Position numbers and translations under genes: made by a program. Below the pieces are notes generated by a model. The model did no database searches. It saw only the letters and a program-made list of their open reading frames with translations, and was not told the origin of the DNA. DNA of 64,000 nt from Deltaproteobacteria bacterium. GTDB taxonomy: Bacteria > Desulfobacterota > DSM-4660 > Desulfatiglandales > Desulfatiglandaceae. The stretch covers positions 1-64,000 of the forward strand of contig JAFDIS010000011.1 of NCBI GenBank assembly GCA_019307945.1, given 5' to 3'. The stretch's first letter is position 1; every line of letters begins with the position of its first letter. Positions 6,855 through 29,685 of the stretch are shown here, piece by piece.

Positions 6855-6869
6855 TAAAAAGGAGTCGTC

Positions 6870-8498
6870 ATGGCAAAAAATCCGAAACCAGAAGAACTCG
6901 TTCAGATTGAACATAAACCTCCTCTGATGAAGGGCTGGATGGAGACGCCCGTCGAGTTGAAGGAGGGGATTTACTGCTACGGCGCCAAGGCCAAGAATCT
7001 GGCGGCGGTGGAGATGCCCAACGCCAGGGACTGGAATCCGGCCGAGGAAGACTGGAAACTGCCCGAGGACTGGAAGGAGATCATCGAGGAAGGTTTCAAG
7101 GACCGCCTGGACAAGTTCCGTTCCCTCAAGCTGTTCATGGACATCTGCGTACGGTGCGGGGCCTGCGCGGACAAATGCCATTTCTTCATCGGCTCCGGGG
7201 ATCCCAAGAACATGCCGGTACTGCGGGCGGAGCTGCTTCGGTCCGTGTATAGGAAAAAATTTACCACCGGCGGAAAGCTCCTGGGCAAATTCGCGGGCGC
7301 CAGGGACATGACCTACGATGTCCTGAAGGAGTGGTGGTATTACCTGTACCAGTGCACGGAATGCAGGCGCTGCTCCCTTTTTTGCCCTTACGGAATCGAC
7401 ACGGCGGAGATCACCATCCTGGGCCGGGAGATGACCAATCTGTTGGGACTCAACACGGACTGGATCGCAGCGCCCGTGGCCAACTGCAACCGTACGGGCA
7501 ACCACCTCGGGATCCAGCCCCACGCCTACAAGGACATGATCGACTTCTTCGTGGACGAAATCGAGGAAGTCACGGGCATTCGGGTGGAGCCCAGCTTCAA
7601 CCGCAAAGGCGCCGAAATCCTCTTTATCACTCCTTCGGGCGATGTCTTCGCGGACCCCGGCACCTACACCTGCATGGGGTATCTAATGCTCTTCCACTAC
7701 CTCCAGGAACAGGGCCTGGACATCACGTGGAGCACCTATGCGTCGGAAGGGGGCAATTTCGGATACTTCACCTCGCATGAGATGGCCAAGCGCCTCAATG
7801 CCAAGATGTACGCAGAGGCCAAACGCCTGGGCGTCAAGTGGATCATGGGCGGTGAGTGCGGTCACATGTGGCGGGTCTTGAACCAGTACATGGACACCTT
7901 CAACGGGCCGCCCGATTTCCTGGAAGAGCCCGTGAGCCCCATCACGGGGACCAAGTTCGAGAATGCCAAGACCACCAAGATGGTCCACCTGGTGGAATTC
8001 ACGGCTGATCTGATCAGGCACAACAAGCTGAAACTGGACCCCAGCAGGAATGACCACCTCACCGTGACCTGGCATGATTCATGTAACCCGGCCCGCGGAT
8101 GGGGTTTCCTCGACGAACCACGCTACGTCCTGAAAAACGTGTGCAATAATTTTTATGAGATGCCGCCCAACACGATCCGTGAGCAGACCTTCTGCTGCGG
8201 GAGCGGGGCCGGGCTCAATGCAGGCGAAAACATGGAACTGAGAATGCGAGGAGGCCTGCCCAGGGCCAACGCGGTCAAGCATGTTCATGAAAAATACGGG
8301 GTGAACATGCTGGGTTGCATCTGCGCCATCGACCGGGCGGTGTTTCCGACATTGATGGATTACTGGGTCCCGGGAGTCGGAGTCACGGGGCTTCACGAGA
8401 TGGTGGCCAATGCTTTGGTTTTCGAGGGTGAAAAGGAGAGGACGACGGATCTTCGCGGTGAACCCCTCGCCGGAATGGAGGAAGAAGAGGATGTATGA
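6870..8498 (+). CDS. dsrK: DsrK, HdrD-like catalytic iron-sulfur subunit
   Basis: A 542-residue cytoplasmic-facing subunit related to HdrD. Two [4Fe-4S] motifs are visible, CVRCGACADKCHF (about residues 92-104) and CTECRRCSLFCPYGID (about 162-177). The C-terminal half has a CCG-type domain with HDSCNPARGWG and QTFCCGSGAG for the noncubane [4Fe-4S] site that is thought to reduce the DsrC trisulfide. Length is normal. Strong AAAAGGAG site before the ATG. Its stop overlaps dsrJ by eight bases, indicating translational coupling. Confidence 0.96.
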   Translation: MAKNPKPEELVQIEHKPPLMKGWMETPVELKEGIYCYGAKAKNLAAVEMPNARDWNPAEEDWKLPEDWKEIIEEGFKDRLDKFRSLKLFMDICVRCGACADKCHFFIGSGDPKNMPVLRAELLRSVYRKKFTTGGKLLGKFAGARDMTYDVLKEWWYYLYQCTECRRCSLFCPYGIDTAEITILGREMTNLLGLNTDWIAAPVANCNRTGNHLGIQPHAYKDMIDFFVDEIEEVTGIRVEPSFNRKGAEILFITPSGDVFADPGTYTCMGYLMLFHYLQEQGLDITWSTYASEGGNFGYFTSHEMAKRLNAKMYAEAKRLGVKWIMGGECGHMWRVLNQYMDTFNGPPDFLEEPVSPITGTKFENAKTTKMVHLVEFTADLIRHNKLKLDPSRNDHLTVTWHDSCNPARGWGFLDEPRYVLKNVCNNFYEMPPNTIREQTFCCGSGAGLNAGENMELRMRGGLPRANAVKHVHEKYGVNMLGCICAIDRAVFPTLMDYWVPGVGVTGLHEMVANALVFEGEKERTTDLRGEPLAGMEEEEDV

Positions 8499-8967
8499 TG
8501 GTGGTAAGATAATCGTCGGACTGATTGCCTGCCTGGCATTCTTTCTATCCCCTTTTATTTACGACGCGGGGACGGCCGCGAAGGCCCCGAAGCCCGTGCT
8601 CACGGAGAAGGCGAAAGAGGCCGGGGAATGTGTAAACTCCACGCCGTACATGAAGGCCTGGCATATGCACCTGCTGGACACCTGGCGTCACACGGTGGTA
8701 CGGAATGACGAAAGGTATTACAGCCCGAGAAGGGAGGCCCGGATGGCCCGGCTGGACAAAAACCTATTCGACCAGTGGCGCCATTTTGTCAGCGACGGGG
8801 CGAGACGATATGTCCCCAAAGAGGACAAGGTGTATTACAAGAGCCTGCAGGAGACTTGCCTGGACTGCCATTCAAACAAGTCGAAATTCTGTGACGAGTG
8901 CCACAACTATATGGGCGTGACGCCGTACTGTTGGGACTGCCACATCCAGCCGGAGGAGAAGAAGTGA
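8491..8967 (+). CDS. dsrJ: DsrJ, periplasmic triheme cytochrome c
   Basis: A 158-residue protein with an N-terminal hydrophobic anchor (IIVGLIACLAFFLSPF) and three CxxCH heme-binding motifs, CLDCH, CDECH and CWDCH, clustered in the last 50 residues. The GECVNS and WHMH region ahead of them contains the Cys and Met residues expected for the unusual His/Cys and His/Met heme ligation of this family. I place the start at 8491 because it gives a signal anchor directly; a longer frame to 8410 lies wholly inside dsrK. The stop overlaps the dsrO start (TGATG). Confidence 0.93.
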   Translation: MYDGGKIIVGLIACLAFFLSPFIYDAGTAAKAPKPVLTEKAKEAGECVNSTPYMKAWHMHLLDTWRHTVVRNDERYYSPRREARMARLDKNLFDQWRHFVSDGARRYVPKEDKVYYKSLQETCLDCHSNKSKFCDECHNYMGVTPYCWDCHIQPEEKK

Positions 8968-9782
8968 TGGGCGTGAACAGAAGGGACTTTCTAAAGATTG
9001 CCGGAATCGCCGGCCTCTTCGGCTTGAGCGGAAGAGCGGCTATGGATATCCTGGCCCCGGGCGAACTTGAGGCAGCAGAGAAGCCCGTAGCCCCGCCGGG
9101 GGTGAAACGTTGGGCCATGGTGGTGGATTCCAGGAAGATGGACGAGGCGTTGATGGACAAGTGCATCGAGGCCTGCCACCGGGAGCACAACGTGCCGAAC
9201 TACGGCAACCCGAAAGAGGAGATCAAGTGGGTATGGAAGGAGGACTACCATCACTCCTTTCCCGGTCAGCAGCATGCATTCATAGAGGAGGACCTGAAGC
9301 ACAAGGAGTTCCTGCTCATGTGCAACCACTGCTCCAATCCGCCCTGCTGCAGGGTATGCCCCACCCAGGCCACGTTTCAGCGTGAGGACGGCATCATTAT
9401 GATGGATATGCACCGGTGCATCGGATGCCGGTTTTGCATGGCGGCCTGTCCTTTCGGGGCTCGGAGCTTCAACTGGGGCGATCCGTGGCGAGTGACCCGC
9501 GTTGAGGAACTGAAGAAGTTGAACCCGGACTTTCCCACGAACCGGACCTACCCCACCCGCTCCAAAGGTGTGGTGGAAAAGTGCACGTTCTGCGCCTCCA
9601 GGCTTGCCAGAGGAGAAGTGCCCGCCTGCGTGGAGGCGGCCAACGAGGTGACGGAGGGCGCTTTGATCTTCGGTGACCTCAATGACCCGGAATCGGGTGT
9701 CAGGGAGGCCCTGAGAAAACACTATTCGATTCGCAGAAAGCCCGAACTGGGAACCGAACCGAATCTATACTTCATCGTGTGA
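8967..9782 (+). CDS. dsrO: DsrO, Tat-exported iron-sulfur protein
   Basis: A 271-residue periplasmic ferredoxin-like subunit. It begins MGVNRRDFLKIAGIAGLFGL, a twin-arginine signal. Cysteine clusters for several [4Fe-4S] centres follow: CNHCSNPPCCRVCP, CIGCRFCMAACPFGA and CTFCASRLARGEVPACVEA, as in DmsB/NrfC relatives. It would pass electrons between DsrJ or a periplasmic donor and the quinone-reactive DsrP. The chosen ATG overlaps the dsrJ stop. Length matches the family. Confidence 0.95.
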   Translation: MGVNRRDFLKIAGIAGLFGLSGRAAMDILAPGELEAAEKPVAPPGVKRWAMVVDSRKMDEALMDKCIEACHREHNVPNYGNPKEEIKWVWKEDYHHSFPGQQHAFIEEDLKHKEFLLMCNHCSNPPCCRVCPTQATFQREDGIIMMDMHRCIGCRFCMAACPFGARSFNWGDPWRVTRVEELKKLNPDFPTNRTYPTRSKGVVEKCTFCASRLARGEVPACVEAANEVTEGALIFGDLNDPESGVREALRKHYSIRRKPELGTEPNLYFIV

Positions 9783-9789
9783 GGTGGTC

Positions 9790-10947
9790 ATGCTTGATAC
9801 CGCATTGAAAGGAAGACAAGGATATTGGAGCTGGCTTATTTTTCTGTTGGCCTTGATGGGAGTAGGGCTGGGCTGCTATCTCTACCAGTTCCAGGAAGGC
9901 CTTCGGATTACCGGGATGAGTCGGGATGTGTCCTGGGGTTTTTACATCGCCCAGTTCACCTATCTCGTCGGGGTGGCGGCCTCGGGCGTGATGGTGGTGC
10001 TGCCTTACTACCTTCACAACTATAAGGCGTTCGGCCGCATCACCGTCCTGGGTGAGTTCCTGGCCATCGCGGCCATCACCATGTGCCTGCTGTTCATCTT
10101 CGTGGACCTCGGCAATCCAGTCAGGATCCTGAACGTCATCCTGTACCCCACGCCCAATTCCATCCTGTTCTGGGACATGATCGTGCTCAACGTGTACCTG
10201 CTTTTGAACCTGTTTGTAGGATGGAACGTCCTGAGCGCGGAACGGAAAGGGATCCCTTACCGTAAATGGGTCAAGGTCCTGGCCTACATCTCCATTCCTT
10301 GGGCCTTCAGCATCCATACGGTGACCGCGTTCCTGTACGCCGGGCTTCCGGGCAGGCACTTTTGGCTCACTGCAATCATGGCGGCACGTTTTCTGGCCTC
10401 GGCCTTCTGTTCCGGTCCCGCCCTGCTGATCCTGCTCTGCCTGATCGTGCGAAAGGTCTCCCGGTTCGATCCGGGAAGAGAGCAGATCCGCACCCTTTCG
10501 GGGATCGTGGCCTACGCCATGATTCTGAACGTCTTTTTCTTCCTGCTGGAACTCTTTACGGCTTTTTACAGCCAAATTCCTTCGCACAAGATCCACTTTA
10601 TATTCCTGTTTGCAGGGCTTGAGGGATACGGGAAACTGGCACCATGGATGTGGACCGCTACGGGCTTCGCCATACTCTCCCTGATTCTCCTGATCGTGCC
10701 GGCCACAAGGAGAAACCTGGATACCCTGGCCGTGGCCTGTGCTGCGGTGGTGATCGCCACCTGGATCGACAAGGGTCTGGGGCTCATCATCGGCGGATTT
10801 ACCCCCAACCCCTTCGAGCGTGTGACGCCCTACTGGCCGACGACGCCTGAGATTTTCATCACCGTGGGCGTCTGGGCCACGGGTTTCTTCGTGCTCACGG
10901 TACTCTACAAAATGGCCGTGAGCGTGAAGGAGGAAGTGGGAGCGTAG
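9790..10947 (+). CDS. dsrP: DsrP, NrfD-family membrane quinone subunit
   Basis: A 385-residue polytopic membrane protein with about ten helices, of the NrfD/PsrC/HybB family, that exchanges electrons with menaquinone next to DsrO. The early region WSWLIFLLALMGVGLGCYLY and the later GRHFWLTAIMAARFLASAF are typical. I use the ATG at 9790 rather than the GTG six bases earlier because GAGGTG is correctly spaced ahead of it. It is the last gene of dsrMKJOP, seven bases after dsrO, and is followed by a C homopolymer and a terminator. Confidence 0.95.
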   Translation: MLDTALKGRQGYWSWLIFLLALMGVGLGCYLYQFQEGLRITGMSRDVSWGFYIAQFTYLVGVAASGVMVVLPYYLHNYKAFGRITVLGEFLAIAAITMCLLFIFVDLGNPVRILNVILYPTPNSILFWDMIVLNVYLLLNLFVGWNVLSAERKGIPYRKWVKVLAYISIPWAFSIHTVTAFLYAGLPGRHFWLTAIMAARFLASAFCSGPALLILLCLIVRKVSRFDPGREQIRTLSGIVAYAMILNVFFFLLELFTAFYSQIPSHKIHFIFLFAGLEGYGKLAPWMWTATGFAILSLILLIVPATRRNLDTLAVACAAVVIATWIDKGLGLIIGGFTPNPFERVTPYWPTTPEIFITVGVWATGFFVLTVLYKMAVSVKEEVGA

Positions 10948-13863: not shown

Positions 13864-15504
13864 TTACAAAACCTTCACTTTGTATACCTGGTTGGAATCG
13901 GGGTCGATTACATGCACCGCGCAAGCGATGCAGGGATCGAAGGAGTGCACCGTCCTGAGGATTTCCAGGGGGCGCTTGGGGTCCGCTACCGGTGTTCCGA
14001 TGAGCGATTCCTCCACCGGGCCCAGCTTGCCGTTGGCACAGCGGGGACCAAGGTTCCATGTGGAGGGGACCACGTACTGGTAGTTCTTGATTTTCTTGTC
14101 CTCGATCTGGATCCAGTGACCGAGGGATCCTCGGGCCACGTCGTTCAGGCCCACGCCCATGCCGCTCTTGGGCACGGTCCACGGGGCGTAGGTGTCGCCT
14201 TTGCCCTTTTTCAGGTTGCCCACCAGTTCCATGATCCACCCTTCCATGGCGTCTCCGATGACAACCGTCTCCAGTGCGCGCGCAGCGGTCCGTCCAAGGG
14301 TGGAGAACAGGGCGGTCACCGGGATACCGAGCTTGGAAATGGTGTCATTGACGACCTTCCGGATCTCCTTTTTGCCGCGGGCATATGCCACAAGGACACG
14401 GGCAAGGGGGCCCACCTCACAAGACTGTCCTTCATAGCGCGGGGCTTTCAGCCAGGAGTACCTGCCGGCGGTGTCATAGTCGCCGTGACGCGGCTTGGTC
14501 TCGCCCTCGTGGGGATGAAGGTCGGCCTTGCCCTCGTACCAGGAATGGGCTACATGTTCGGTCACCTTGGATTCCTCGGCCATCTTGACGCCCTTGAGGT
14601 CCCTGTTCATGATGATGCCACGGGGCAGGAAGAGGCTCTCAGGCTCATTGGCCGACAATGGAAGGTCGCCCCAGGCAAGGAAATTGGTGGTTCCGCCGAT
14701 ACCGCCCCAATCCTTGTAAAAGGAGGCCACGGCCAGGATATCGGGTAGGTAGACCTTCCTGACGAAATCCTGTGTTTCCTTCCAGAGGAAGAGGAATTCA
14801 CCGATTCGATCCGGGGTCAGATCCTTTGCGCATGTCACGCCTCCCACCACCAGGGTCTGAAGGTGGGGATTCTTGGCTCCGAAGACGGCGTGCATCCGTG
14901 CGGTCTTGGCCTGAAGCCTCAGCGCCTCGAGATAATGGGCCGCGGCCATCAGGTTGCCCTCTGGAGGCAGTTTGTAGGCCGGATGGCCCCAGTAGGCGTT
15001 GGCAAAGGGACCGAGCTGTCCGCTGTCCACGAAGGTCTTGATTCGCTGCTGGACCTGGGTGAAGTAAGCGGTTCCGCCCCAGGGTGCCTCACTCACCTGG
15101 TCGGCCAGGGCGGAGGTCTTCTTAGGGTCCGCTTTCAGGGCGCTTACCACGTCCACCCAGTCGAGGGCATGGAGGTGGTAGAAATGGACGATATGGTCGT
15201 GCTGAAACTGTGCTCCATGAAGGAGGTTCCTGATGATGCGGGCATTGTCGGGGATCTGCACGCCCACGGCGTTTTCCACCGCTCTGATGGATGCAAGATA
15301 GTGGGTATAGGTACACACGCCGCACGAGCGCTGGGTAAAGAGAGGGGCGTCCCGTGGATCCCTTCCTTGCAGGATGATCTCGAGCCCCCGGAACATCTGG
15401 CCGGAACTCCAGGCGTTGACCACTTTTCCCCCCGAGACTTCCACCTCGATGCGGAGATGTCCTTCGATTCTGGTAATCGGATCGATCGTGATTCTTTTAC
15501 CCAA
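13864..15504 (-). CDS. hynA: [NiFe] hydrogenase large subunit
   Basis: A 546-residue catalytic subunit of a periplasmic uptake hydrogenase. The two nickel-binding motifs are RSCGVCTYTH (near residue 59) and DPCIACAVH (near residue 527), both with cysteine, so it is a standard [NiFe] and not a [NiFeSe] enzyme. Fifteen residues after the last His form the tail removed by HyaD. The start is TTG at 15504, eight bases after GGAGG; the protein begins GKRITIDPITRIEGHLRIE, fully conserved. It follows hynB by 68 bp and would be carried out of the cell with HynB by the Tat system. Confidence 0.96.
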   Translation of the reverse strand: MGKRITIDPITRIEGHLRIEVEVSGGKVVNAWSSGQMFRGLEIILQGRDPRDAPLFTQRSCGVCTYTHYLASIRAVENAVGVQIPDNARIIRNLLHGAQFQHDHIVHFYHLHALDWVDVVSALKADPKKTSALADQVSEAPWGGTAYFTQVQQRIKTFVDSGQLGPFANAYWGHPAYKLPPEGNLMAAAHYLEALRLQAKTARMHAVFGAKNPHLQTLVVGGVTCAKDLTPDRIGEFLFLWKETQDFVRKVYLPDILAVASFYKDWGGIGGTTNFLAWGDLPLSANEPESLFLPRGIIMNRDLKGVKMAEESKVTEHVAHSWYEGKADLHPHEGETKPRHGDYDTAGRYSWLKAPRYEGQSCEVGPLARVLVAYARGKKEIRKVVNDTISKLGIPVTALFSTLGRTAARALETVVIGDAMEGWIMELVGNLKKGKGDTYAPWTVPKSGMGVGLNDVARGSLGHWIQIEDKKIKNYQYVVPSTWNLGPRCANGKLGPVEESLIGTPVADPKRPLEILRTVHSFDPCIACAVHVIDPDSNQVYKVKVL

Positions 15505-15572: not shown

Positions 15573-16517
15573 CTATTCGCTCGCCTCGAAGAAGGGGCTC
15601 ATCTTGTCCCAGAAATCCGGTTCACTGCAACCGATGCATGGATGTCCGGCCTCCACCGGCCAGCTCGTGCCGTCATTAAATTTCGCGATGGGACAATTGT
15701 TGTAGGTATCCGGTCCCTTGCAGCCCATTTTATAAAGGCAGAAGCCTTGCTTGGCTTCTTCGGAACCGAACTCCTCCACGAACTCGTCGTGCTCGTAATG
15801 CGATCTTCTGGGGCACTGGTCATGAATGGAGGTACCGTAGGCGAAAAGTGGTCTTCCTATATCATCCACGGCAGGCAATTTGCCCAGGAGGAGATAGTTT
15901 GCGATGGTACCCACCAGGTTGATCGGATTGGGGGGACAGCCGGGGATGTTTACCACGGAGATTCCGAGGGCGTCACCCACGCCCTTGTACCCGCCCGGGT
16001 TGGGCTTGGCGGCCTGTACCCCGCCGTAGGCGGCGCAGGTGCCTAGGGCGATGACCGCCTTGGCCTTCCGGCATACGTCGTCGGCGATCTCGAGGAAGGT
16101 GCGGCCGCCGATCTTGCCGTACACGCCGTTGTCTTTAGTGGAGATTGCGCCTTCCACGACGCAGATGAATTCTCCCTCGTATTTTTTCGTTGCCATACGG
16201 AGATTGTCTTCCGCCTGATGGCCCGCCGCCGCCATGATGGTCTCATGGTATTCGATTGACAGGACTTCGAGGACCAGCTCGTCGATCCAGGGGTACATGC
16301 TTCTCAGAACCGCCTCGGAGCAACCCGTGCACTCCGCAAAGTGAAGCCAGATCACGGGCGGCCGCTGCTTGGGAGCTGCGAACACCTCGGCCACCCTGGG
16401 AACGAAGGATGAGGCCAGGCCCATGGTCGCAGTGAGAAATCCGCAGTACTTCATGAAGTCCCTTCTCGAGATCCCCTTCTCCAACAGCCTTTGATCAAAG
16501 TCTCTTTCCAGTGTCAT
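15573..16517 (-). CDS. hynB: [NiFe] hydrogenase small subunit, Tat-exported
   Basis: A 314-residue electron-transfer subunit with three iron-sulfur clusters. The twin-arginine signal is GISRRDFMKYCGFL. Cluster ligands are seen in ECTGCSEAVLR (proximal), GTCAAYGGVQ, PGCPPNP, the CPRRSHYE-to-KMGCKGPDTYNNCP region (distal) and GHPCIGCSEPDFWD. There is no C-terminal membrane anchor, so the enzyme is soluble in the periplasm, consistent with the neighbouring cytochrome c3 as acceptor. AAGGAGG ribosome site. A promoter is seen at 16591-16619. Confidence 0.96.
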   Translation of the reverse strand: MTLERDFDQRLLEKGISRRDFMKYCGFLTATMGLASSFVPRVAEVFAAPKQRPPVIWLHFAECTGCSEAVLRSMYPWIDELVLEVLSIEYHETIMAAAGHQAEDNLRMATKKYEGEFICVVEGAISTKDNGVYGKIGGRTFLEIADDVCRKAKAVIALGTCAAYGGVQAAKPNPGGYKGVGDALGISVVNIPGCPPNPINLVGTIANYLLLGKLPAVDDIGRPLFAYGTSIHDQCPRRSHYEHDEFVEEFGSEEAKQGFCLYKMGCKGPDTYNNCPIAKFNDGTSWPVEAGHPCIGCSEPDFWDKMSPFFEASE

Positions 16518-16798: not shown

Positions 16799-19700
16799 TC
16801 AGATTTCCTGGATCATGGCCAGGATTTGGTCTTCGCCGAAACCCTTAAGGTTGATGGCACCGGACCGGCACGATGAGACGCACAGGCCGCAGCCTTTGCA
16901 CAGGGCCTCGTTGATCCGGGCGGTGCCCGCTGGAGGGCCTTCGGCGGCGAGGGCCGGGGCCCCATAGGGGCATAGACTGACGCATACTCCGCAACCGCTG
17001 CATGCGGCGGGATTTACGCCGGCCACCGTGCCTCCTACCTGAATTGTGCCCCTGGACAGGAGCCTGGCGGCCCGGGAGGCGGCCGCCTGGGCCTGGGCGA
17101 TGGACTCGTCGATCGACTTCGGGTAATGGGCCATCCCGCAAAGAAATATCCCGTCCACGGCGAATTCGGCAGGCCCGAGCTTTGCATGGGACTCCACAAA
17201 GAAGCCGTCCTCGTTTGTCGGGAGCTTGAAAAACCGGGCCGTCTCTTCCGAATCACGCGGTACTATGGCCGAAGCGAGCGCCACCAGGTCCGCCGTCAGG
17301 GAGATCTGCTTTCCCAACAACGGGTCCTCGAATCGGACTTTAAGTCCATCTTGGGCGGGCGAGACCGAGGGCTTTCGGTCCGCTTCGTATGGAATAAACA
17401 GTACGCCCGCCTCCCGAGCGGCGCGGTAGAGCATTTCCCGTTCGCCGTAGGTGCGCATGTCCCGGTAGAGGATGTAGACCTTTGCATGGGGATTCATCTT
17501 TTTCAGGTAAAGAGCGCTTTCCACGGCGTGGGTGCAGCAGACCCTGGAGCAGTAAGGTCTTTCGGGTTCCCGGGAACCAACGCACTGGATAAAAACGGCA
17601 CATCCCAGGGTACGCAGGTCCTCATCCTCCCTCATGAACTTCTGGTCCAATTCCAGGTGGGTGACGATCCTGGGGTCCTCCCCGTAGGCGTACTCTCGTG
17701 GTTCGGCCTCCCGGGCCCCCGTGGCGATTACCACGATGCCGTGTTCCAGCACCTCACGGCCATCCCTGCCGTCGAGCGTGGTCTTGAAGTTTCCGACAAA
17801 CCCATCAACTTCCGCCACGCGTGTCTCCAGGCGCAGATCGATGTGCGAGTGGTTCTTTACGGCCTCCACCATCTCGGCCAAGCGTTGCTGGACCGGGTCC
17901 CCCTTCCAGGTCCGGAAGAGCTTTCGCGCCTGCCCGCCGAGAGTCTTCTCCCGCTCCACGAGACAGACCTCGAATCCCTGCGCAGCCAGGTTCAGGGCGG
18001 CCGCCATGCCCGAGATGCCTCCTCCCAGCACCAGGGCCCGCTGGTTGAGATCCAGTTCCGACTCCTCCAAAGGTTCCAGCAGGGCCACCTTGGCCACGGC
18101 CATGCGTACGAGATCTTTGGCCTTTTCCGTGGCGGCCGCCGGATCGTCCTTGTGCACCCAGGAGTCCTGGTTGCGGATGTTGGTCATTTCGAACAGGTAC
18201 TTGTTGAGCCCCGCGTTGACCAGGGTCTCCTGGAACAGAGACTCATGGGTCTTGGGCGTGCACGCGGCCACGACGATCCGGTTGAGACCCTGTTCCCGTA
18301 TCATGTCGGCCATGGTCTCCTGGGTGTCCTGGGAGCAGGTGTAGAGGTTGTCGGTGACAAAGGAGACGTATGGAAGACCCTTTGCGTACTCCACGACGGC
18401 CGGTACGTCCACGACGCCGCTGATGTTGATTCCACACCGGCAGACGAAGACGCCGATCCGGGGCCTTTCGCCCGTTACGGGCCTATACTCGACGGGTTGG
18501 GCTGCTGCCGTCTCCGCGTGTCGCGCTTCCTGGAGCAGGGCCCCGGCCTGGGCTGCGGCCGCCCCCGCCTCGATCACCGACTGCGGGATGTCCTTGGGAC
18601 CCTGGAAGGCGCCGCATACGAAGATCCCGGGCCGGTTGGTCCGCGTGGGCTGAAAGGTCTCCGTGTCACAGAACCTGCCGGGGGTAAGACGGAGTCCCAG
18701 CTTTTCCGCGAGGGCCAGTGAACTTGCCTCCGTTTCCATGCCCACCGACAGGACCACGAGGTCGAAATCTTCCCGCACGGTCTCCTCTTGTTGGTTCACG
18801 TAAGGGATGATCAACCTCCCTTTTCCGGGATCGGACTCCACCGTGGGGACACGCGAGCGGATGAATCGGACACCGTGTTTGTCCCGGGCTTCGATGAAAT
18901 ACCGCTCGAAGTCCTTCCCGTGGGTGCGCATGTCCATGTAAAAGATGGCGCAGTCCAGGGGTCCTGTAGCGTGTTCCTTGGCGATAACGGCCTGTTTGAC
19001 CGCGTACATACAGCAGACGGAAGAACAATAAGGGTTGTCGCAGCGGTTGAGGTCCCGTGATCCCACACATTGGATCCAGGCGATTTTTCGGGGTTCAGAG
19101 TGGTCCGAAGGCCGCAGGAGATGGCCCTCCGTAGGACCTGAGGCGGAAAGGATCCTTTCGAATTCCATGGCCGAAAGGACGTCGGGATGGGCCGAATACC
19201 CGTACGCAGTGATGCGGGCCGGGTCGAAGGGTCGAAAGCCCGGGGCCAGCACCACGGCTCCGACCCGGAGGTCCACTGTTTCGGCCTTCTCGGCATGCGT
19301 TTCCCGGGTCACCGCCCCGGCACCGCAGGCTTCCACGCACAAGTAGCATTCCGAGCAGATTCCGCAGGAAAGACACCGCTCGGCCTCGGCTACCGCTTGT
19401 TCCTCGGAAAAACCGAGTTGCACCTCCTGAAATCCGGAGATGCGTTCGGCCGGGGCAAGGCGCGGCATGGGGTTCCGGGCCACCGGCTCTCTGCCCGCAA
19501 GGGGCGGTTCGGCCACGGGTCCGGTCGTATCTTCACGGCCTTCACGAAGGTCCCGGCCCCGGAATAAGCGATCTATGGAAAGAGCGGCCTGCTTACCGGC
19601 CTCGATGGCCTCGATCACGGTCTTGGGTCCGGTAACCGCGTCTCCCCCTGCGAAGATGTCCGGGTCGTCCGTCTGAAGCGTCAGAGGATCAACACGCATG

Positions 19701-21235
19701 GTACCCCAGTCGGTCAGGGAGCAGGCGCATTCGGGGGTAAGGCAGGACCAGTCCGATTCCTGGCCTATGGCCTGAATCACCCCGTCTACCTCCAGAACGA
19801 ATTCCGAGCCGGCCACGGGGACGGGCCTGCGCCTTCCACTTTCATCCGGTTCTCCCAACTTCATACGGACGCATTCCACGGCCTTGACCCTGCCTCCCTC
19901 GCCTATGATGCGGGTGGGGTTGACAAGGGTGCGGATTTCGATCCCCTCTTCTTCGCATTCCTCCACCTCTTCGGCGTTGGCGGGCATCTCCTCCAGGCTC
20001 CTGCGATATAGAATGAAGGGCTCGCGGGCCCCGAGCCTCTTTGCCGTGCGCACCGCGTCCATGGCTACGTTCCCGCCGCCGATCACCGCGATCCGGTCAC
20101 CGAGAGTGACATGTCGGCCCAGGTTCACGTCCCGCAGGAAATCCACGCCGGAAAGGACACCCTGAAGATCCTCTCCCTCGATACCCATGCGCTTGCATTC
20201 CTGGGCGCCGATGCCGAGGAAAAAGGCCCCATATCCCTCTTTCCGAAGCTGTTCCACCGTAACGTCCCGGCCAAGTTCCACGCCGGTGCGGATTTCCACG
20301 CCCAATTGCCGTATAACGTCGATTTCCGCCTCAATAATGTCCCTGGGCAGCCGGTAGGCGGGGATCCCTACGGTGAGCATGCCGCCGGGTACGGGCAATT
20401 TTTCGAATATGGTGACCGCATACCCTTCCACGGCAAGATAATAGGCACAGGAGAGCCCGGCTGGGCCAGACCCGATCACGGCCACCTTTTTCCCTTTGAG
20501 TTCCTTTCGTTCAGGCACGTAGCGGGTCTCCGAATGAAGGTCCAGGTCCGCCACGAACCGCTTGATGAAATCGATGGCCAGGGGTTCGTCCACCTGGCCC
20601 CTGGCGCAGGCCTCTTCGCAGGGATGGTGACATACCCTGCCGCAGATGGCGGGGAGCGGATTTTGCTCCTTGATGAGTTTCAGCGCCTCCCGGTATTTTC
20701 CACGGGCCACCAGGGCCACGTATCCCTGGACGCTTATATGGGCAGGGCAGGCGGCCTTGCACGGGGCCGTGCCCCGCTTGGAGATGGCGTAGGCGCCGGG
20801 GATGGCCTGGGCGTATTTCTTGAAGATGGCCTTTCGAGACTTCAGGCCCTGCTCATGCTCCGCGGGCAGGGAGACGGGACACACCGCCTCGCAGTCACCG
20901 CAACCCGTGCAACGGGAAGGGTCGATGTAACGGGGATTCCTGTGGACCCTGATCGTGAAGTTCCCGGGCTCGCCGCTGATGCCTTCCACCTGGGCGCAAG
21001 TAATAAGGTGAATGTCCGGATGCCGGCCGACCTCGACCAGTTTAGGCGAGATGATTCACATGGCGCAGTCGTTGGTGGGGAAGGTCTTGTCCAGCGCGCT
21101 CATCACACCGCCGATGGCGGAAGATTCCTCCACCAGGTACACGCGATAGCCCGAATCGGCGAGGTCCAGGGCGGCCTGCATGCCCGCGATGCCGCCTCCC
21201 AAGACCAGAACGGATCCACTCACGTCTCGTGACAT
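16799..21235 (-). CDS. hdrA: Selenocysteine-containing HdrA-GltD-HdrA fusion flavoprotein
   Basis: A 1478-residue protein if the in-frame TGA at 21058-21056 is read as selenocysteine (residue 60). Residues 1-59 hold the HdrA FAD motif [12 protein letters not shown] and end TFPTNDCAM; directly after the TGA the frame continues [17 protein letters not shown], the normal HdrA sequence where other members have Cys or Sec. A ferredoxin motif [12 protein letters not shown] is at 109-120. Then comes a GltD-like NAD(P)H module (about 150-590; CKAACP at 159, GSGPAGLS at 255), a [13 protein letters not shown] cluster region and the rest of the first HdrA unit. The second HdrA unit starts around 925 with [14 protein letters not shown], has [14 protein letters not shown], and ends in two [4Fe-4S] motifs, [12 protein letters not shown] and [11 protein letters not shown]. 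Likely a cytoplasmic electron-bifurcating or -confurcating hub with HdrBC and ferredoxin. Without readthrough the start would be lost or a 1396-residue product would lack its FAD loop. Confidence 0.88.
21023..21040 (-). promoter_or_regulatory. SECIS-like stem-loop after the hdrA TGA
   Basis: In the mRNA, 15 bases after the UGA, CUGGUC pairs with GGCCGG (two G-U pairs) around the loop GAGGUC. Bacterial SECIS elements lie at this distance and show a GU in a small apical loop; the AGGUC here is also present in the E. coli fdhF loop. This is a fold by eye. Confidence 0.55.
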
Positions 21236-21281
21236 GGAACACTCCTTGTCAAAAAGGTGGATGGGGACGCCGAGAAATGGC

Positions 21282-21567: not shown

Positions 21568-21857
21568 TTCTAAAATGAGCGTTTCAAATTTTGATGAAAT
21601 AATTTTGTTATAAATTTCAACCAGATAAATCCTATTATCGCATGGTGTATTGTCACCCGTAAGGTGGACACCGTGTGAGTCATTTCTTGGGCAGAACATC
21701 AAGATTTGAAACCCAACAGGATTTCCGGTTTTACGGGATCCGCCGCGTTGCCCGCCTGCGCCCCGGGCGGGTTTCCGGGAAACTCGGAAATCGCTCAATT
21801 TGGGCGTTATGTGAAAAAATGCCCCGCGTGACTCAGCGGACAGAGAAGGAGAGGCCC

Positions 21858-22322
21858 ATGGAACGGATCGATCTGGACGCTGCGGACCCGGGTTTTGCCG
21901 AGGCACTGGCCTCCCAACCCGGTGGGGAGCGTATCGCCGCCTGCTTCATGTGCCGCACCTGCGTGGCCAGTTGCCCCATTTCCGCTGTGGACCGCAGATT
22001 TCACCCCTTGCGGATCATACGCTTGGCCCTCTACGGCCTGAAACAAGAGGTCCTGGCCAGCGATTTCATTTGGCTCTGCTCCAGTTGCTATGCCTGCCAG
22101 GAGCGGTGCCCCCAGGGCGTGAAGATCTCCGATTTCATGACGCTCCTCAAGAATCTCGCGGTGAAGGAAGGCCACGTGCCCAGGGGGATAAGGGCCCAGT
22201 TGGATCTCATCCGGGAGCATGGCCGGATCTATCCCATCGACGATTTTGACAACAAGAAACGAAACAAGGCCGGACTGCCTTCCCTGCCCACCTCCTGCGA
22301 CGTAGTCGCTAAGCTGGCTTGA
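21858..22322 (+). CDS. hdrC: HdrC-like heterodisulfide reductase iron-sulfur subunit
   Basis: A 154-residue protein with two [4Fe-4S] motifs, CFMCRTCVASCP (about residues 31-42) and CSSCYACQERCPQ (about 75-87), the HdrC pattern. It would carry electrons between the HdrA flavoprotein and HdrB. I choose ATG 21858 because AAGGAGAGG precedes it; the longer frame upstream has no conserved content. HdrB follows after 39 bp. It is transcribed away from the large HdrA gene, unlike the usual single hdrABC operon. Confidence 0.9.
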   Translation: MERIDLDAADPGFAEALASQPGGERIAACFMCRTCVASCPISAVDRRFHPLRIIRLALYGLKQEVLASDFIWLCSSCYACQERCPQGVKISDFMTLLKNLAVKEGHVPRGIRAQLDLIREHGRIYPIDDFDNKKRNKAGLPSLPTSCDVVAKLA

Positions 22323-22361: not shown

Positions 22362-23237
22362 ATGAATTACGCCCTTTTCCTAGGCTGTACGATCCCCGCC
22401 CGGTCTAGAAACTATGAGATGTCCGCCAGGAGAGTGGCGGAAAAGGTAGGCCTTTCCCTGGTGGACGTGGAAGAGTTCGTTTGCTGCGGTTTCCCGGCCA
22501 AGAACAGTGACCGGGAGTTTTCGGAGACACTCGGGGGCTACAACCTCGCCCTGGCGCAGCAGCGCGGAATGGATATCTGCGTGCTTTGCAGTTCCTGCGC
22601 CTCGGCCCTTACCGAGACGGCCCACAGGCTCTCCTCCGATCCCAGGGCACGCGATCGTGTCAACGGACGCATCGCCGCCGCCGGCCTTCGTTACGACGGG
22701 GACGTGCGGGTGAGGCATTTCGCCCGTCTGCTCCTGGAGGATGTGGCTCCAGAGACCATCACCTCCCGTTGTGAGAGGGATCTCACGGACCTCAGGGTTG
22801 CGGTCCATTACGGATGCCATTACTTGAAGCCGTCCGAAATCTACGACGGGTTCGATGACGTTGAGGCCCCCGACTCGGTGGAAGCCCTGTTGCGGCTCGC
22901 AGGGGTGGACGTGGTGGATTACCCTTCCAAGAAGATGTGCTGCGGGGGCCCCGTGCTTCCCGTTGACGAAAAGCTGGCCCTGGCCGTTGCGCACGAAAAG
23001 CTGACCCAGCTCCGGGATGCGGGTGCGGAGGCCCTCTGCCTGGTCTGCCCCTTCTGTTCCGTGATGTATGACGGGAACCAGAAGGGCATCGAATCGGAAT
23101 TCGATGAGAGTTACGGCCTGCCCGTCCTCTACCTCACGCAGATACTGGGCCTGGCCATGGGGTTCGGCCGGAAAGAACTGGGCCTCAACATGAACGTGGT
23201 GAAGACCAAGAAACTCCTGGCGCGCTATTTCGAGTGA
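22362..23237 (+). CDS. hdrB: HdrB-like heterodisulfide reductase catalytic subunit
   Basis: A 291-residue protein starting MNYALFLGCTIPARSRNYE. It carries the two CCG-domain signatures expected for HdrB noncubane clusters: EEFVCCGFPAKN with a following CSSCASAL, and YGCHYLKPSEI with KKMCCGGPV and CPFCSVMYDGNQ. In methanogens this subunit reduces the CoM-CoB heterodisulfide; in sulfate reducers the thiol/disulfide substrate is not established and might be a DsrC-like protein. Probably co-transcribed with hdrC and perhaps with glpK downstream. Confidence 0.9.
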   Translation: MNYALFLGCTIPARSRNYEMSARRVAEKVGLSLVDVEEFVCCGFPAKNSDREFSETLGGYNLALAQQRGMDICVLCSSCASALTETAHRLSSDPRARDRVNGRIAAAGLRYDGDVRVRHFARLLLEDVAPETITSRCERDLTDLRVAVHYGCHYLKPSEIYDGFDDVEAPDSVEALLRLAGVDVVDYPSKKMCCGGPVLPVDEKLALAVAHEKLTQLRDAGAEALCLVCPFCSVMYDGNQKGIESEFDESYGLPVLYLTQILGLAMGFGRKELGLNMNVVKTKKLLARYFE

Positions 23238-24954: not shown

Positions 24955-27900
24955 CTATGGGCCGGATCGCGAAGCGGGCAGGGCGCTCAATCTTTCCAGT
25001 GCCAGATCAAACTTCCTGGCGATCAGGTTTTCGAATTCCTTTCCCAGGTAGGGCCGGTTTTGCTGAAGGTACCACTTTATGCTGTTCCAGTAGTCCCTCA
25101 GTTCTTCGGCGTCGTTGATGGAATCCAATATCACTTCGATTTCCCTCAGTTTTTTCCGCCTCAGGTTGTCCTTTCTTATCTCATAGAGATCCTGGAGGCG
25201 GTGACGCTGTTCACTGGAAAATCCCATGTCCAGGGAGCGCATACCGAGGTCCTGGGCCAGGTGATGTAATTCGGCGAAGTCCTGAATGAGTTCCATTTGT
25301 TTGGCGGCCTTGGCCAGGGTGCTGTCGATGATCCTTTCGAGCCGTTCTTCAAAGGCCCGCTCCAGGGCCAGTTCGTAGTCCTCGGTGGGGAACGGGTGCT
25401 TTCGGAGAGACCTCAGGCTGTAATGGAAATAGTTCTTGAGTTGGTCAAGGTCGTCGATGGTCTGCATGTAGGAGACCTTGCGCTCCATGTGGATTTTGTC
25501 TTGGAATTCCACGGAAAGGACGCGGCCCCCAGGGCCGGTCTTGAGAAGGACCCCTGACTTTGCCTTGAAGAGGCGGCTTGGTCTGGCCTTGTTCGCCCAG
25601 ATCCTTTCCATGGGAATGCCGTTGAGGAAGTCGTTGACCGCCTCGTAGCGCTTTTCGATGACGTCGGCCATGCCCGTGTAGTTGATGCAGATGGATCCAT
25701 CTGTCTCCTCCATGGCCGTGGTGCCCACAAGTCCCGCCAGGATGAGTTTCAACTGGTTTTGGTAGCTCAAGAAATCACTCACCTTTTCGTAGCCGAAAAC
25801 ACGTACCCGGTCGCGCAGGAGGCGATCCAGCATGAAGTGCCGAATGGATTCGTCCAGGTTCTGGAGCGTTCGGTAGATTCGGAAGGCCTCGTACACCTCC
25901 CTTTCGTAGGATGCGTACCCTATGCTGGAAAGCTTTCTCTTCTTGTAAATGAATTTGAGAGGCACCTTGACCATGAGGTTGACCAAGTCCACGAACTCCA
26001 CGTAGCGAATTCCGTGAAGGCGGAAGAGGCGCTCCATGGCGAAGATGCGCTCCCCCGCCCGTAGGGTCTCCTCGTCCGATTTGCCGGGCCAGCGGCCCGA
26101 GTCCAGATAACGGCCTGCCGACACACCTTCCGGCAGGCCGACCCGATCATAATATTGCAGGGCGAAAAAGAGCCCTCCCCTGTACCTGAAGAGTTCCTTT
26201 TGGGCGAGATCCAGGGTGGTCTTGCCTTCCAGGATGTCCCGGCAGAGCCCCCGGATCCGGAAAAGCCGTGCGGCGAGGTCCTCCAGCACCAGATCTTCAC
26301 CCAGGGCGGAGAGCATGATGAAGGAAAGTACGAACAAGGCGTCGAGCAAGTCCGGGTCTGCGGCACGCAAGATGTTCTCCAGCGCAGCGAATCCCATCTC
26401 GCCACGGATCATGTGGTGAAAATCGCTGTGGTGCCTCACCAGGAAGAGAAGGTGGTTCCGGGCCTCCTCGCCCAGCTGGAGTCTTTCCGGGATGCCTTCT
26501 TTTTCGAGAATGACTGCGCCCGCATTTCCCAGATCCGCGGGGTTGATTACGTCACGGTACCTGTCCCGCAGTTCGGGCACCCTGGCAAGGTCCTGGAGGA
26601 CCACGGCCTTGGCCAGGGCTTCGAACAAGGGTGGCGATGCGGCCAGGCCCGCCACGATGTGTTCCAGGGCCTGGATCTGGGATTCATTGACCCCCACGAT
26701 ACCGGTGGCCATTGGACCGAATTCACGCTGGGCGAGGTGATGGAGGAAATGGACGTTTTGAAAATCCTCCCGCCGCCCCCGGATGAGGGCCTGGAGCTTC
26801 CTCGCGGAATTCAGGATGTATTCAGTGACCGAGGTCTTCAAATACAGCCTGCCCGAAAGGTCGGCCTTTCGCAGTGCGGTGAACTCGGGAAGGATGAAAT
26901 TCAGGATGGAGGGCGCGTGTCGGTGTAGCAGGTTTAGATCCGTATATAGGGCCTCGGGCCGAAAAAGGATTTGAAGGAGATCCGACTTGAGGGATTCCCG
27001 CAGCGTGTCGGCCTGCTGGAACCATTTCCGCTGGCGCGCCGGGAGTCGGGAGCGCATCTCTTTATCCCGCGTGAGCCTCAGATGCCCCTGGTAGAAGCTC
27101 TCCAGGTGCGAAAAAAGCGCCTCGATCCTTTCCAGGTCCTCAAGCGGCAGGTCGTTCAACGTGTGTCCCGCCCATTTCCGGGAAAGGACGCGAAGATCCT
27201 CGATGTTTTGATCCAGGTCCACGTAGAGGATCTCCAGGGCCTGGGTGTCACGGTTGACGCGTAGTTGGAAACCTGATCCCACGATGAATGCGGAATGGTT
27301 TTCGTAGACTTGTTTGCTGAATTGTCTGAGCGACTCCAGGTCCAGGTACTGAATGCGGATCCTGGCGGCCTCCTGCTCCACCCGGCGTATCCGCTCCTCT
27401 ATCTGTTCCTCTTGCACATCGGCCAGGATGGGATTGAAGTTGATTACATCTCCCCGGACCACGTTTACCGTGATCCACAGGAGGACGAACACCAGGCCGC
27501 TGTCCATGCGCTGGAAGAGATGTCCCGTGCCGTGAAACTCCATCCCGAGGAATTTCCGGTAAAAGGCGGGCAGTTCCACCGGATCCAGCTTCAAGTGTTG
27601 CTGCTCCACCAGTTCGATGGTCTCAAGGAGATGTATGATGCTTTCGATTCTGGACACCTGCGCTTCGTCATAGTCGGCCAGGGCCTCTTTTTCCATGGGA
27701 CCCTTTTCCCGCAACTCCGCCCAATTGTCCAGAAACTCGAAGTGGTTGGCCATTTTCAGAATTTTCCGGACGATCTTGTTATGTATTCCTCCCAATGAGC
27801 TGATACGCTCATCGAGGAGGCCGTCCCAGTCCAGTTCCCGGTTCGTGGCCACGCGGACAGTGGCCTCGTACAGATCGAAGAGTTCCGCCAGTTGGCCCTG

Positions 27901-29685
27901 GTTGAGTTCCCTGCCCCGCGCGGCCACCGTCTCCGCCATGGTCATCAGGCGGCAGTAGCGCAGCAGATTCAATCCGTGCTCGGCATCGTATCGTCGGGCC
28001 AGGTCCGAGAGGGGCTTGAGCGCCTTTTCGTTCATTTTTCCGGAAATGATGCGCCCCATGGCGGTGTGTCCGGTCACGATTAGGAAGATCTCCCTCACTT
28101 CCTCATGGCTGAATCCAAAGAAGGGGAGGGCTTCCAGATTCTCCAGGATTCGGGTGCGGGAGCCCTGGATACCGTCGGGATTCATGTACTTCTTGATCCT
28201 CTCGAGGCGCCCGGCCTTGGATACCAGTTTGACCACTGCGTTGAGCCTGGGGAATCGCCGCTTCTTGTTGTCCAGCGGCTGCTTCAGGCGATCGATGAAT
28301 ACCCGGGGCAGGTGTTCGTACCGGCCCTGCTTCAGCCTTTCCAGGACCTGAAGCGTATCGATTACGTACTCGAAGGAATCCCGATAGTCGGCCAGGAGGC
28401 TCAAGGGGCACCCCGCGAGTTGGGATTCGGACACTTCTTCCTTCAGCTTGGACAGGGTCGTCTTCAAAGGCCGTTTCTGACCCAGGTAGATCAGCATGTA
28501 GTGCGGGGCGAATCCGTGGCACGAGAAGCGCCGGTCCCAGTTCGACCGCACATTGTCCGGGATCAGGGGCTTGAGGAAGATTTGCTGGAAGTAGACGGAG
28601 AGCAGCCTGGACCACGTTTTTTCCTGGTCCACGGTATAGGGTCGATCGCTCAGTCGGAAATCCATGTAGGGGAGATTTTCGATCTCCTCGAGGGTCATCT
28701 CCTCCAGGGTCCGGCCCCCCAGGAGTCGGTTCACCGTCTCCTGTTCCACGTAAAGGTCGCTGAGGTATTGCTGGAAGTCGAACTGGTTTACCTGCATCCC
28801 TCCTCCCCCCGGGCTGCGGTGAAACCTCCGGCGGGTCTTGAATATATGGCTGAAAAGGGCGTAGTTTTTCTCCTCCGCCTCGCTCTTGAACCGCACTTTG
28901 GCCGTTTTGTTGCTCCTGGGGACATAACGGTTTGCGATGATAAAGATTTCACCGTCGGGCTTGAGCCGGTTGAAGATCTCCCAGAGCAGGAACAACGCAT
29001 ACTGTTCCAGGCGGGCCTTGTCCGGTTGTTTCAGGGCGAGAGGGCTGAACCCTTCCATTGTGATCAGCTCGTAGAGGTCGCGCGTCACCACGATCAGGTC
29101 GAGGGTCGCGTCGAGGGCCTTCAGCCGGTCCAGGGAGTCAATGAGGACGAAGTGGTGCTCCTTGAAGCCTGAAGAGAGTTCCCGGAAGATAAGATCGTCC
29201 CGGTGGGTCACCAGTCCGATGTCGTGATGTTCCTGGAGGTATTTCCTCCGGTGGTAGCCGACGATCTTGGAGATCTCATTCACCTTGGACTTGACATGAC
29301 TCAAGGTGGCGGAGACCAGGTGGGCCGGAATCAGGTAGTAGGGCTTGCCGCGGGAGGAAAACCGGATCAGCAGCCCCAGGTTCTTGTAGATCCGGTTGAG
29401 GTCCCGATAATGGAGCCTGACCTGGTCGGGGTCTTCCAGGTTGACGGACTGGAGAAAGTCCATGTCCGCCTTGTTGAGCCGATCATAGACTTCAAAGAGG
29501 CCGAACCCGTAAGCATTGCCCCCGAACCGGCTTATGAGCTGGGCCGGGTGTCTCAGGGCGGGAAAGGTGCCCAGGGGCACGTCCTGCGGATCGATTCCGT
29601 AGAAGTGAAACTCATCCGGCTTAACAAGGCGGAAGGGGCTTTTTATCCATGCGGTTTCGGGAGTGGGGGAAGCGGTGGGTTCCAT
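24955..29685 (-). CDS. 1576-residue protein of unknown function with degenerate HD region
   Basis: A very long soluble protein with no signal peptide; I do not recognise a named family. Around residues 165-280 the pattern LDLIVVTRDLYELITMEGFS, then LLWEIFNRLKPDGEIFIIAN, resembles the late strands of a class I methyltransferase fold. Around residues 1010-1110 KAVVLQDLARVP, LGEEARNHLLFLVRHHS and DPDLLDALFVLSF resemble the HD domain of the PII uridylyltransferase GlnD, but the expected HD pair is LQD, so hydrolase activity is doubtful. The rest is largely helical, with a charged coiled-coil-like C-terminus. It follows livF by 53 bp and could be the last gene of the liv operon. Function unknown. 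Confidence 0.8.
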   Translation of the reverse strand: MEPTASPTPETAWIKSPFRLVKPDEFHFYGIDPQDVPLGTFPALRHPAQLISRFGGNAYGFGLFEVYDRLNKADMDFLQSVNLEDPDQVRLHYRDLNRIYKNLGLLIRFSSRGKPYYLIPAHLVSATLSHVKSKVNEISKIVGYHRRKYLQEHHDIGLVTHRDDLIFRELSSGFKEHHFVLIDSLDRLKALDATLDLIVVTRDLYELITMEGFSPLALKQPDKARLEQYALFLLWEIFNRLKPDGEIFIIANRYVPRSNKTAKVRFKSEAEEKNYALFSHIFKTRRRFHRSPGGGGMQVNQFDFQQYLSDLYVEQETVNRLLGGRTLEEMTLEEIENLPYMDFRLSDRPYTVDQEKTWSRLLSVYFQQIFLKPLIPDNVRSNWDRRFSCHGFAPHYMLIYLGQKRPLKTTLSKLKEEVSESQLAGCPLSLLADYRDSFEYVIDTLQVLERLKQGRYEHLPRVFIDRLKQPLDNKKRRFPRLNAVVKLVSKAGRLERIKKYMNPDGIQGSRTRILENLEALPFFGFSHEEVREIFLIVTGHTAMGRIISGKMNEKALKPLSDLARRYDAEHGLNLLRYCRLMTMAETVAARGRELNQGQLAELFDLYEATVRVATNRELDWDGLLDERISSLGGIHNKIVRKILKMANHFEFLDNWAELREKGPMEKEALADYDEAQVSRIESIIHLLETIELVEQQHLKLDPVELPAFYRKFLGMEFHGTGHLFQRMDSGLVFVLLWITVNVVRGDVINFNPILADVQEEQIEERIRRVEQEAARIRIQYLDLESLRQFSKQVYENHSAFIVGSGFQLRVNRDTQALEILYVDLDQNIEDLRVLSRKWAGHTLNDLPLEDLERIEALFSHLESFYQGHLRLTRDKEMRSRLPARQRKWFQQADTLRESLKSDLLQILFRPEALYTDLNLLHRHAPSILNFILPEFTALRKADLSGRLYLKTSVTEYILNSARKLQALIRGRREDFQNVHFLHHLAQREFGPMATGIVGVNESQIQALEHIVAGLAASPPLFEALAKAVVLQDLARVPELRDRYRDVINPADLGNAGAVILEKEGIPERLQLGEEARNHLLFLVRHHSDFHHMIRGEMGFAALENILRAADPDLLDALFVLSFIMLSALGEDLVLEDLAARLFRIRGLCRDILEGKTTLDLAQKELFRYRGGLFFALQYYDRVGLPEGVSAGRYLDSGRWPGKSDEETLRAGERIFAMERLFRLHGIRYVEFVDLVNLMVKVPLKFIYKKRKLSSIGYASYEREVYEAFRIYRTLQNLDESIRHFMLDRLLRDRVRVFGYEKVSDFLSYQNQLKLILAGLVGTTAMEETDGSICINYTGMADVIEKRYEAVNDFLNGIPMERIWANKARPSRLFKAKSGVLLKTGPGGRVLSVEFQDKIHMERKVSYMQTIDDLDQLKNYFHYSLRSLRKHPFPTEDYELALERAFEERLERIIDSTLAKAAKQMELIQDFAELHHLAQDLGMRSLDMGFSSEQRHRLQDLYEIRKDNLRRKKLREIEVILDSINDAEELRDYWNSIKWYLQQNRPYLGKEFENLIARKFDLALERLSALPASRSGP

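Follow-up and report, generated by a model that had tools for sequence, protein, structure and literature searches.

The question raised by this locus is whether a UGA codon that interrupts a conserved gene of the HdrA family is a stop signal or a selenocysteine (Sec) codon. The gene lies in a stretch of 64,000 nucleotides (nt), referred to as the window, which comprises positions 1 to 64,000 of contig JAFDIS010000011.1 (contig C103 in our numbering) of the deltaproteobacterial assembly GCA_019307945.1. On the minus strand, an ATG at 21235 opens a frame of 1478 codons when its single in-frame TGA is read through. Read-through and domain matches together delimit an hdrL-type gene (16799..21235, minus strand), encoding an HdrA unit, a GltD-like insert and a further HdrA unit in one chain. 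The TGA occupies codon 60 (21056..21058, minus strand), at the position of HdrA Cys197, and a ribosome-binding-site-like AAGGAG is located 6 nt 5′ of the ATG (21242..21247, minus strand). A preliminary description of this DNA had reported the TGA at 21058-21056 in a frame opened at 21235, and both are present on the minus strand. It had also cautioned that annotation would drop 82 residues along with the flavin adenine dinucleotide (FAD) loop, which is borne out by the mechanical open reading frame (ORF) obtained without read-through. This ORF spans 16799..20989 from a GTG at 20989, encodes 1396 amino acids and lacks the first 82 codons, including the FAD GxGxxG loop. The name hdrA used there is too narrow, since the gene as a whole encodes an HdrA/GltD/HdrA fusion of the HdrL kind. 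Other UGA-interrupted genes in the window were sought by listing same-frame open stretches split by a TGA with at least 30 and at least 100 codons on either side, a list outside which Sec sites nearer a gene end fall. Of its many rows, which were judged by eye, some simply reflected genes following one another, and none but that at 21058 resembled a broken conserved protein.

Comparison of homologs showed that codon 60 is restricted to two states. The comparison covered 129 distinct HdrA sites drawn from 139 loci of the host genome, a contig scan (80 loci kept) and a search of the order, with a proline required soon after the codon and duplicates removed. All 129 sites carried either TGA (43) or TGT/TGC (86), and no other codon was found. 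Without these filters, the scan also gave four rows in which the codon was a different one, three in locus L055 and one in L069; on inspection, all of them were chance matches to non-HdrA sequence. The 43 Sec sites were gathered by protein similarity and mostly within one order (six in the host genome, 11 in contig-scan loci and 26 through the order search); the Cys:Sec ratio of loci L030-L109 is biased because the probe carried a Cys codon at the site. An HdrA N-terminal match was found in 60/61 genomes of the order, and in 29 of the 30 top-ranking rows a single TGA lay inside the match, the host genome being included in both counts. Residue 60 aligns without gaps with Cys197 of 5odc_A in the PDB, as well as with position 197 of 9sfi_A, a non-standard residue given as X that we infer to be Sec. 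These results are in agreement with the earlier placement of the TGA on a column where HdrA proteins have a cluster-ligand Cys or Sec, and the occurrence of Cys or UGA in the relatives provides no refutation at column 60.

The host genome (4.16 Mb, 185 contigs, 98.5% complete) contains eight HdrA copies with one TGA, namely, the present gene, those on C118, C110 and C67, and two each on C185 and C41. The site DKTFPT(N/M)DC(A/S)(M/I)-UGA could be read directly in seven of them (C103, C118, C110, C185:32933, both C41 copies and C67), while that of the eighth (C185:9900-10322) was placed inside the HdrA match by the UGA-plus-18-mer pattern described below. The C185:9900 and C67 copies are left out of the 43 Sec sites, and the UGA/Cys tally for this genome leaves out the HdrA copies at C10, C183 and C67:56169. 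At least one host copy has a Cys codon at the site (C96, TGC); the stretch following this TGC in C96:3524-6750 holds two TGA and may reflect a pseudogene, a frameshift or a sequence error.

The preliminary description had proposed a search for the Sec machinery, and selA, selB, selD and tRNA-Sec were all found above their cut-offs. A single selA match scored 612.1 bits (cut-off 267.9), selB 383.5 bits (cut-off 242.25), selD 372.9 bits (cut-off 125) and tRNA-Sec 73.2 bits (gathering score 47). Two more tRNA-Sec matches, which barely reach the gathering score (47.1 and 47.0 bits), may be other long-arm tRNAs. In-frame TGA codons were also observed elsewhere in this genome. The selD gene (C3:31471-32397) has one near its start, so that SelD itself is probably a selenoprotein. 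Four MvhD-type genes (on C118, C110, C41 and C185) contain one each, at two different sites, and a formate dehydrogenase alpha subunit gene scoring above its family cut-off (C37:3693-5699) contains one. A weaker match resembling this subunit (C55:3630-5057) also contains a TGA in frame, close to its beginning and succeeded by a hairpin whose loop is AGGUC, and Sec coding in this gene is uncertain.

The UGA in the window is followed after 15 nt by CUGGUC-GAGGUC-GGCCGG (21040-21023), the candidate SECIS (selenocysteine insertion sequence) hairpin CUGGUCGAGGUCGGCCGG (21023..21040, minus strand), delimited from conservation, pattern search and fold. Its six codons, CTG GTC GAG GTC GGC CGG, are identical in 40 of the 43 Sec copies and the other three copies are off by one base, whereas the 86 Cys copies display 83 different versions. 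Synonymous identity over these codons was 0.95-1.00 in the Sec copies versus 0.18-0.50 in the Cys copies. Outside the hairpin, synonymous identity among Sec copies was lower: the next highest degenerate codon after the UGA, AAA just 5′ of the hairpin, reached 0.82, and other fairly uniform codons were an upstream AAG (0.79) and the CAT directly after the hairpin (0.68). The peptide LVEVGR is also encoded by 12 Cys copies, and the 18-mer occurs in none of these 12. All six pairs of the stem as first proposed are present in 42/43 Sec copies, 4/86 Cys copies and 2/12 of the Cys copies encoding LVEVGR. The silent sites, frozen in Sec copies and free in Cys copies, lend indirect support to the predicted recognition of the hairpin by SelB. 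This freeze goes beyond the evidence of the preliminary description and is the strongest new support for the Sec reading.

A control family, MvhD, was analyzed in the same order. Among 29 sites from 30 loci (L213 gave none), 26 had TGA and three had a Cys codon; the string CAT-TAC-CTG-GAA-GGT-AAT was uniform in 25 of the 26 Sec sites, the remaining one having GAG, and the three Cys sites differed. Because the Sec sites of MvhD are frozen in a like manner, the idea that the freeze is exceptional to HdrA was dropped; in this group, it characterizes no fewer than two selenoprotein families. The frozen MvhD SECIS belongs to the UHPGDCHY-type site of the relatives. No description of this freeze in HdrA emerged from a limited literature search, mostly short of full text; SECIS phylogenies have been said to agree with selenoprotein phylogenies, with the data not shown there (PMC1794560).

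The pattern of a UGA, 15 nt and the 18-mer is confined to HdrA in the host genome and widespread in the phylum. With up to three mismatches, the host genome gave seven matches (six exact and one with one mismatch), each within an HdrA match. The exact pattern was present in 89/297 genomes of the phylum, representing 65/199 genera, with zero occurrences of a reversed control pattern among the matches listed, and all 30 exact matches read in loci L173-L210 lay at this HdrA site. This search measures presence and not invariance, the latter having been measured on the 43 Sec sites. A looser phylum search allowing three mismatches extended to 133/297 genomes, chance matches included, as its control shows; among the matches listed, it also contained a small number of UGA copies deviating by 1-3 bases, such as those in genomes G070, G291, G224 and G147.

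Folded alone, the 18-mer forms 7 base pairs (bp) with the loop AGGU at -9.1 kcal/mol, one pair more than the stem proposed earlier; the stem at 15 nt after the UGA is present as described earlier, and in the best 18-nt fold the loop is AGGU in place of GAGGUC. The bacterial SECIS model is described as a stem of 4-16 bp and a loop of 3-9 nt with a G in the first two loop positions, the loop lying 16-37 nt after the UGA and the energy being ≤ -7.5 kcal/mol (PMC13188914). The 18-mer alone corresponds to this model, its AGGU loop being located 22 nt after the UGA, so that the comparison with a bacterial SECIS model suggested in the preliminary description is favorable for the 18-mer taken by itself. 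Three observations weigh against a simple SECIS assignment. The predicted minimum-energy fold of the 49-nt context differs from the SECIS hairpin; folding of these 49 nt is not unusual (z -1.24, with 23/200 shuffles equally good); and one Sec-type HdrA copy of the host genome (C67:52185-52616) lacks the 18-mer. In that copy, the sequence GATGTC-GGTC-GACATC after the UGA looks, on visual inspection, like a potential hairpin. As the 49-nt context favors another fold, the evidence for the SECIS is conservation and not folding energy.

It is against this background that other explanations of the UGA were considered. Were it a true stop, the gene would be the 1396-codon ORF from the GTG at 20989, which is exactly what a mechanical ORF finder returns; however, the 82 preceding residues are HdrA sequence with an FAD loop and an AAGGAG ahead, and the UGA and hairpin are kept together in relatives, making this reading very improbable. 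Either a sequencing error or a recent nonsense change in a Cys codon would fit an assembly in 185 contigs and the existence of relatives with a Cys codon, but it would have to recur in seven further HdrA copies of the same genome having one in-frame TGA, as well as in the 29 of the 30 best order-search rows with one TGA in the match. A base error is thus very unlikely, and the possibility of such an error raised in the preliminary description is not supported; we give this explanation still less weight than a true stop. Equally negligible is a genome-wide altered code, or a suppressor inserting another residue, although the frame is indeed open once the UGA is read through: the hdrL-type gene itself terminates in TGA (ATC TGA), the homologous residue is Cys, the Sec machinery is present, and the hairpin is frozen in the UGA copies only.

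A somewhat greater, but still small, probability is assigned to the UGA being mainly a selenium-dependent switch, by which low selenium would stop translation after 59 residues and Cys paralogs would replace the protein. The host copy with a Cys codon on C96 would suit such a switch, and replacement by Cys paralogs has been proposed for Desulfobacterium autotrophicum by analogy with Vhu/Vhc (PMC2702500). However, a switch of this type would be a consequence of Sec coding and not an alternative to it. We therefore retain Sec as the meaning of codon 60: the hairpin 15 nt downstream would direct SelB and Sec-tRNA to decode the UGA. The elements are present in the genome, and we place the probability of this mode of decoding at about 0.95.

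The predicted product is a 1478-residue HdrL-type protein. Residues 1-152 (20780..21235, minus strand; PDB and family matches) form the N-terminal part of the first HdrA unit, with the FAD loop, Sec60 and the start of the inserted ferredoxin domain. This domain is split at approximately residues 155-633 (19337..20773, minus strand; Pfam, PDB and family matches) by a GltD/NfnB-like insert for NAD(P)H and FAD binding, after which the remainder of the first unit, approximately residues 634-904, follows (18524..19336, minus strand; PDB matches). The second HdrA unit, residues 905-1478 (16802..18523, minus strand; alignment), is fused behind and comprises an N-terminal cluster domain, an FAD domain devoid of the Cys197 motif and two C-terminal-end 4Fe-4S motifs. 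A single chain thus combines HdrA domains with an NAD(P)H domain of the glutamate synthase type, which is the architecture of HdrL. The NAD(P)-site motif of the insert, GGGNVA, is of the GxGxxA type, which has been linked to NADP rather than NAD (PMC12054007) and by that rule points to NADP.

The two HdrA units form a complementary pair. The first has Sec60 at position 197 but no N-terminal domain; conversely, the second aligns from residue 4 of the HdrA chain 8rvu_a, retaining the N-terminal domain and its cysteines, and reads TWKG-DPVQQ where 8rvu_a has TFPTLDCSMC, so that Cys197 is absent. Within HdrABC, the N-terminal [4Fe-4S] cluster of one HdrA receives a ligand from its HdrA partner, namely Cys197, and in fused HdrAs, Cys197 and the N-terminal domain are present in a complementary fashion (PMC9012536). 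Given this bridging role and the complementarity of the fused units, the ligand role of Sec60 is probably intramolecular, directed at the N-terminal-type cluster of the second unit. By this analogy we consider it fairly likely that this residue supplies the fourth ligand of that [4Fe-4S] cluster.

Several features of the protein have precedents. HdrL was named in D. autotrophicum HRM2 in 2009, hdrL1 and hdrL3 being among at least 31 selenoproteins (PMC2702500), and the present protein resembles HdrL1/HdrL3 in combining Sec, HdrA and a glutamate-synthase-type domain in one chain. A 2006 survey reported seven Sec-HdrA in Syntrophobacter fumaroxidans and, in Deltaproteobacteria, fused hdrA-hdrA genes and an hdrA_N-unknown-hdrA_C arrangement (PMC1794560). 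The host shares with these bacteria the occurrence of several Sec-HdrA copies per genome, and the unknown insert may be of the same kind as the GltD insert here; in the available text of the survey, however, the insert is not named GltD, and the operons carry frhD, frhG, frhA and glpC. These reports of 2006 and 2009 accord with the earlier statement that Sec-containing HdrA is established in some anaerobic bacteria, and since both Sec HdrL and Sec-HdrA had been reported, the kind of gene found here was already known. Its striking feature is that the SECIS is near-unchanged among the relatives examined.

Among structurally characterized proteins, the HdrA chains of 5odc (HdrABC-MvhAGD) and 9sfi are single units of 654 and 658 amino acids, in contrast to the two fused units and GltD insert here. 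A GltD/NfnB-like module in the inserted ferredoxin domain is shared with archaeal type III HdrA and HdrA 9-11 of ANME-1 (anaerobic methanotrophic archaea) (PMC12054007; PMC9012536). Archaeal type III is, however, a type I HdrA with GltD inserted, whereas in the present protein two HdrA units are fused as well (PMC12054007). The self-complementing pair is comparable to ANME HdrA3/4, but in the reverse order, the Cys197 unit being first here (PMC9012536).

Candidate partners are encoded divergently upstream. An HdrC-like gene (21675..22322, plus strand; family matches), whose translation may begin only at an ATG near 21858, is followed by an HdrB-like gene with CCG domains (22362..23237, plus strand; Pfam and family matches). 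The partnership is supported by locus L070, where hdrL, hdrC and hdrB are placed in this order on one strand, with 71% (HdrC) and 69% (HdrB) identity to the window proteins. According to the proposed mechanism, the GltD module would handle NAD(P)H, HdrC-HdrB would connect to a disulfide-type substrate, and electrons would be exchanged between these two and a low-potential carrier. The protein would then be a soluble flavin-based bifurcating or confurcating oxidoreductase linking these three, an assignment we favor only slightly over its alternatives.

Some findings count against this assignment of type and function. No match to MvhD (PF02662) was found on contig C103, on which the hdrL-type gene lies; hdrCB is divergent from hdrL and not in one operon with it, and the partners are suggested by gene order only; and the HdrA2 family model NF040770 gave 951.7 bits over four stretches, below its cut-off of 1100. 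Moreover, the GltD insert of archaeal type III HdrA was suggested in a 2025 study to block access of ferredoxin, on account of which the low-potential partner is uncertain (PMC12054007). In D. autotrophicum, mvhD comes after every HdrA or HdrL gene other than hdrA4 (PMC2702500); the present locus differs from HdrL there in lacking mvhD on the contig, in its divergent hdrCB and in the [NiFe] hydrogenase genes with a Tat (twin-arginine translocation) signal that follow. Since the mvhD context is not found, the gene is classed as HdrL-type by its domain architecture and is not a proven HdrL ortholog. The other fused copies in the genome, on C118 and C110, each have beside them an MvhD gene with an in-frame TGA.

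Beyond the hdrL stop, the same strand carries, after a gap of 281 nt, a gene for a [NiFe] hydrogenase small subunit with a Tat signal (15573..16517, minus strand; Pfam and family matches), followed by that of the large subunit in its Cys version (DPCIAC; 13864..15504, minus strand; Pfam and sequence) and, further downstream, a HycI-type protease gene and a cytochrome c3-like gene. The hydrogenase was rejected as a partner of HdrL and is treated as a neighbor, not as part of the complex, as the Tat signal and the 281-nt distance indicate a probably periplasmic, separate unit. Elsewhere in the window, DsrM, DsrK, DsrO and DsrP genes are located at 5790-10947 (plus strand), making sulfate or sulfite respiration likely; the host is probably a sulfate-reducing bacterium. 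A 1576-amino-acid ORF at 24955-29685 (minus strand) had no Pfam match, and its codon-position GC is coding-like.

The relation between Sec and Cys forms was examined in a FastTree phylogeny of HdrL with 79 rows (69 Cys and 10 Sec), in which proteins of <1250 amino acids were dropped and the root was not inferred. The two states are intermixed, and the tree needs four Sec/Cys changes, all four forced by well supported branches; for HdrA, the 2006 survey put the number of Cys-to-Sec events at two and that of Sec-to-Cys events at zero (PMC1794560). The 86 Cys cores differ from the 18-mer by 1 to 11 bases, and five are within two bases (L032 and L083:11432 at one; L057:11129, L084:5361 and L125 at two). 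Locus L032 carries at 6160 an HdrL with TGT and a hairpin one base off the 18-mer, and it is the tree sister of the window gene, with long branches; it possibly represents a change from Sec to Cys. Cys HdrL beside other Sec clades (L083:6133, L084:62, L056, L031, L060, L068 and L077) have 5-6 differences, like most Cys copies. The five near-matches may be SECIS relics of Sec-to-Cys loss, a reading to which these more distant neighbors lend no support. The near-identical 18-mer in intermixed Sec lineages favors one origin with losses, or recombination, over repeated gains. We see evenly balanced odds for the proposal that a single 18-nt RNA element, the SECIS of Sec-HdrA, has been passed on near-unchanged, even at silent sites, across a large part of the phylum, either from one old origin followed by several conversions to Cys or through recombination.

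For annotation, the consequence is that standard gene models drop the FAD loop of this protein, and other Sec-HdrA genes share this fate, considering the exact pattern in 89/297 phylum genomes. A UGA, 15 nt and the 18-mer constitute a simple pattern for finding and repairing such models, which misses other SECIS, such as that of the C67 copy. The frozen silent sites in HdrA and MvhD make SelB recognition in these bacteria directly testable. If the ligand model is true, the fused protein would offer a single-chain system for the role of a Sec ligand on an iron-sulfur cluster in electron bifurcation, and, if the SECIS reading holds, an RNA element would lock the protein to LVEVGR at a place where its Cys relatives vary.
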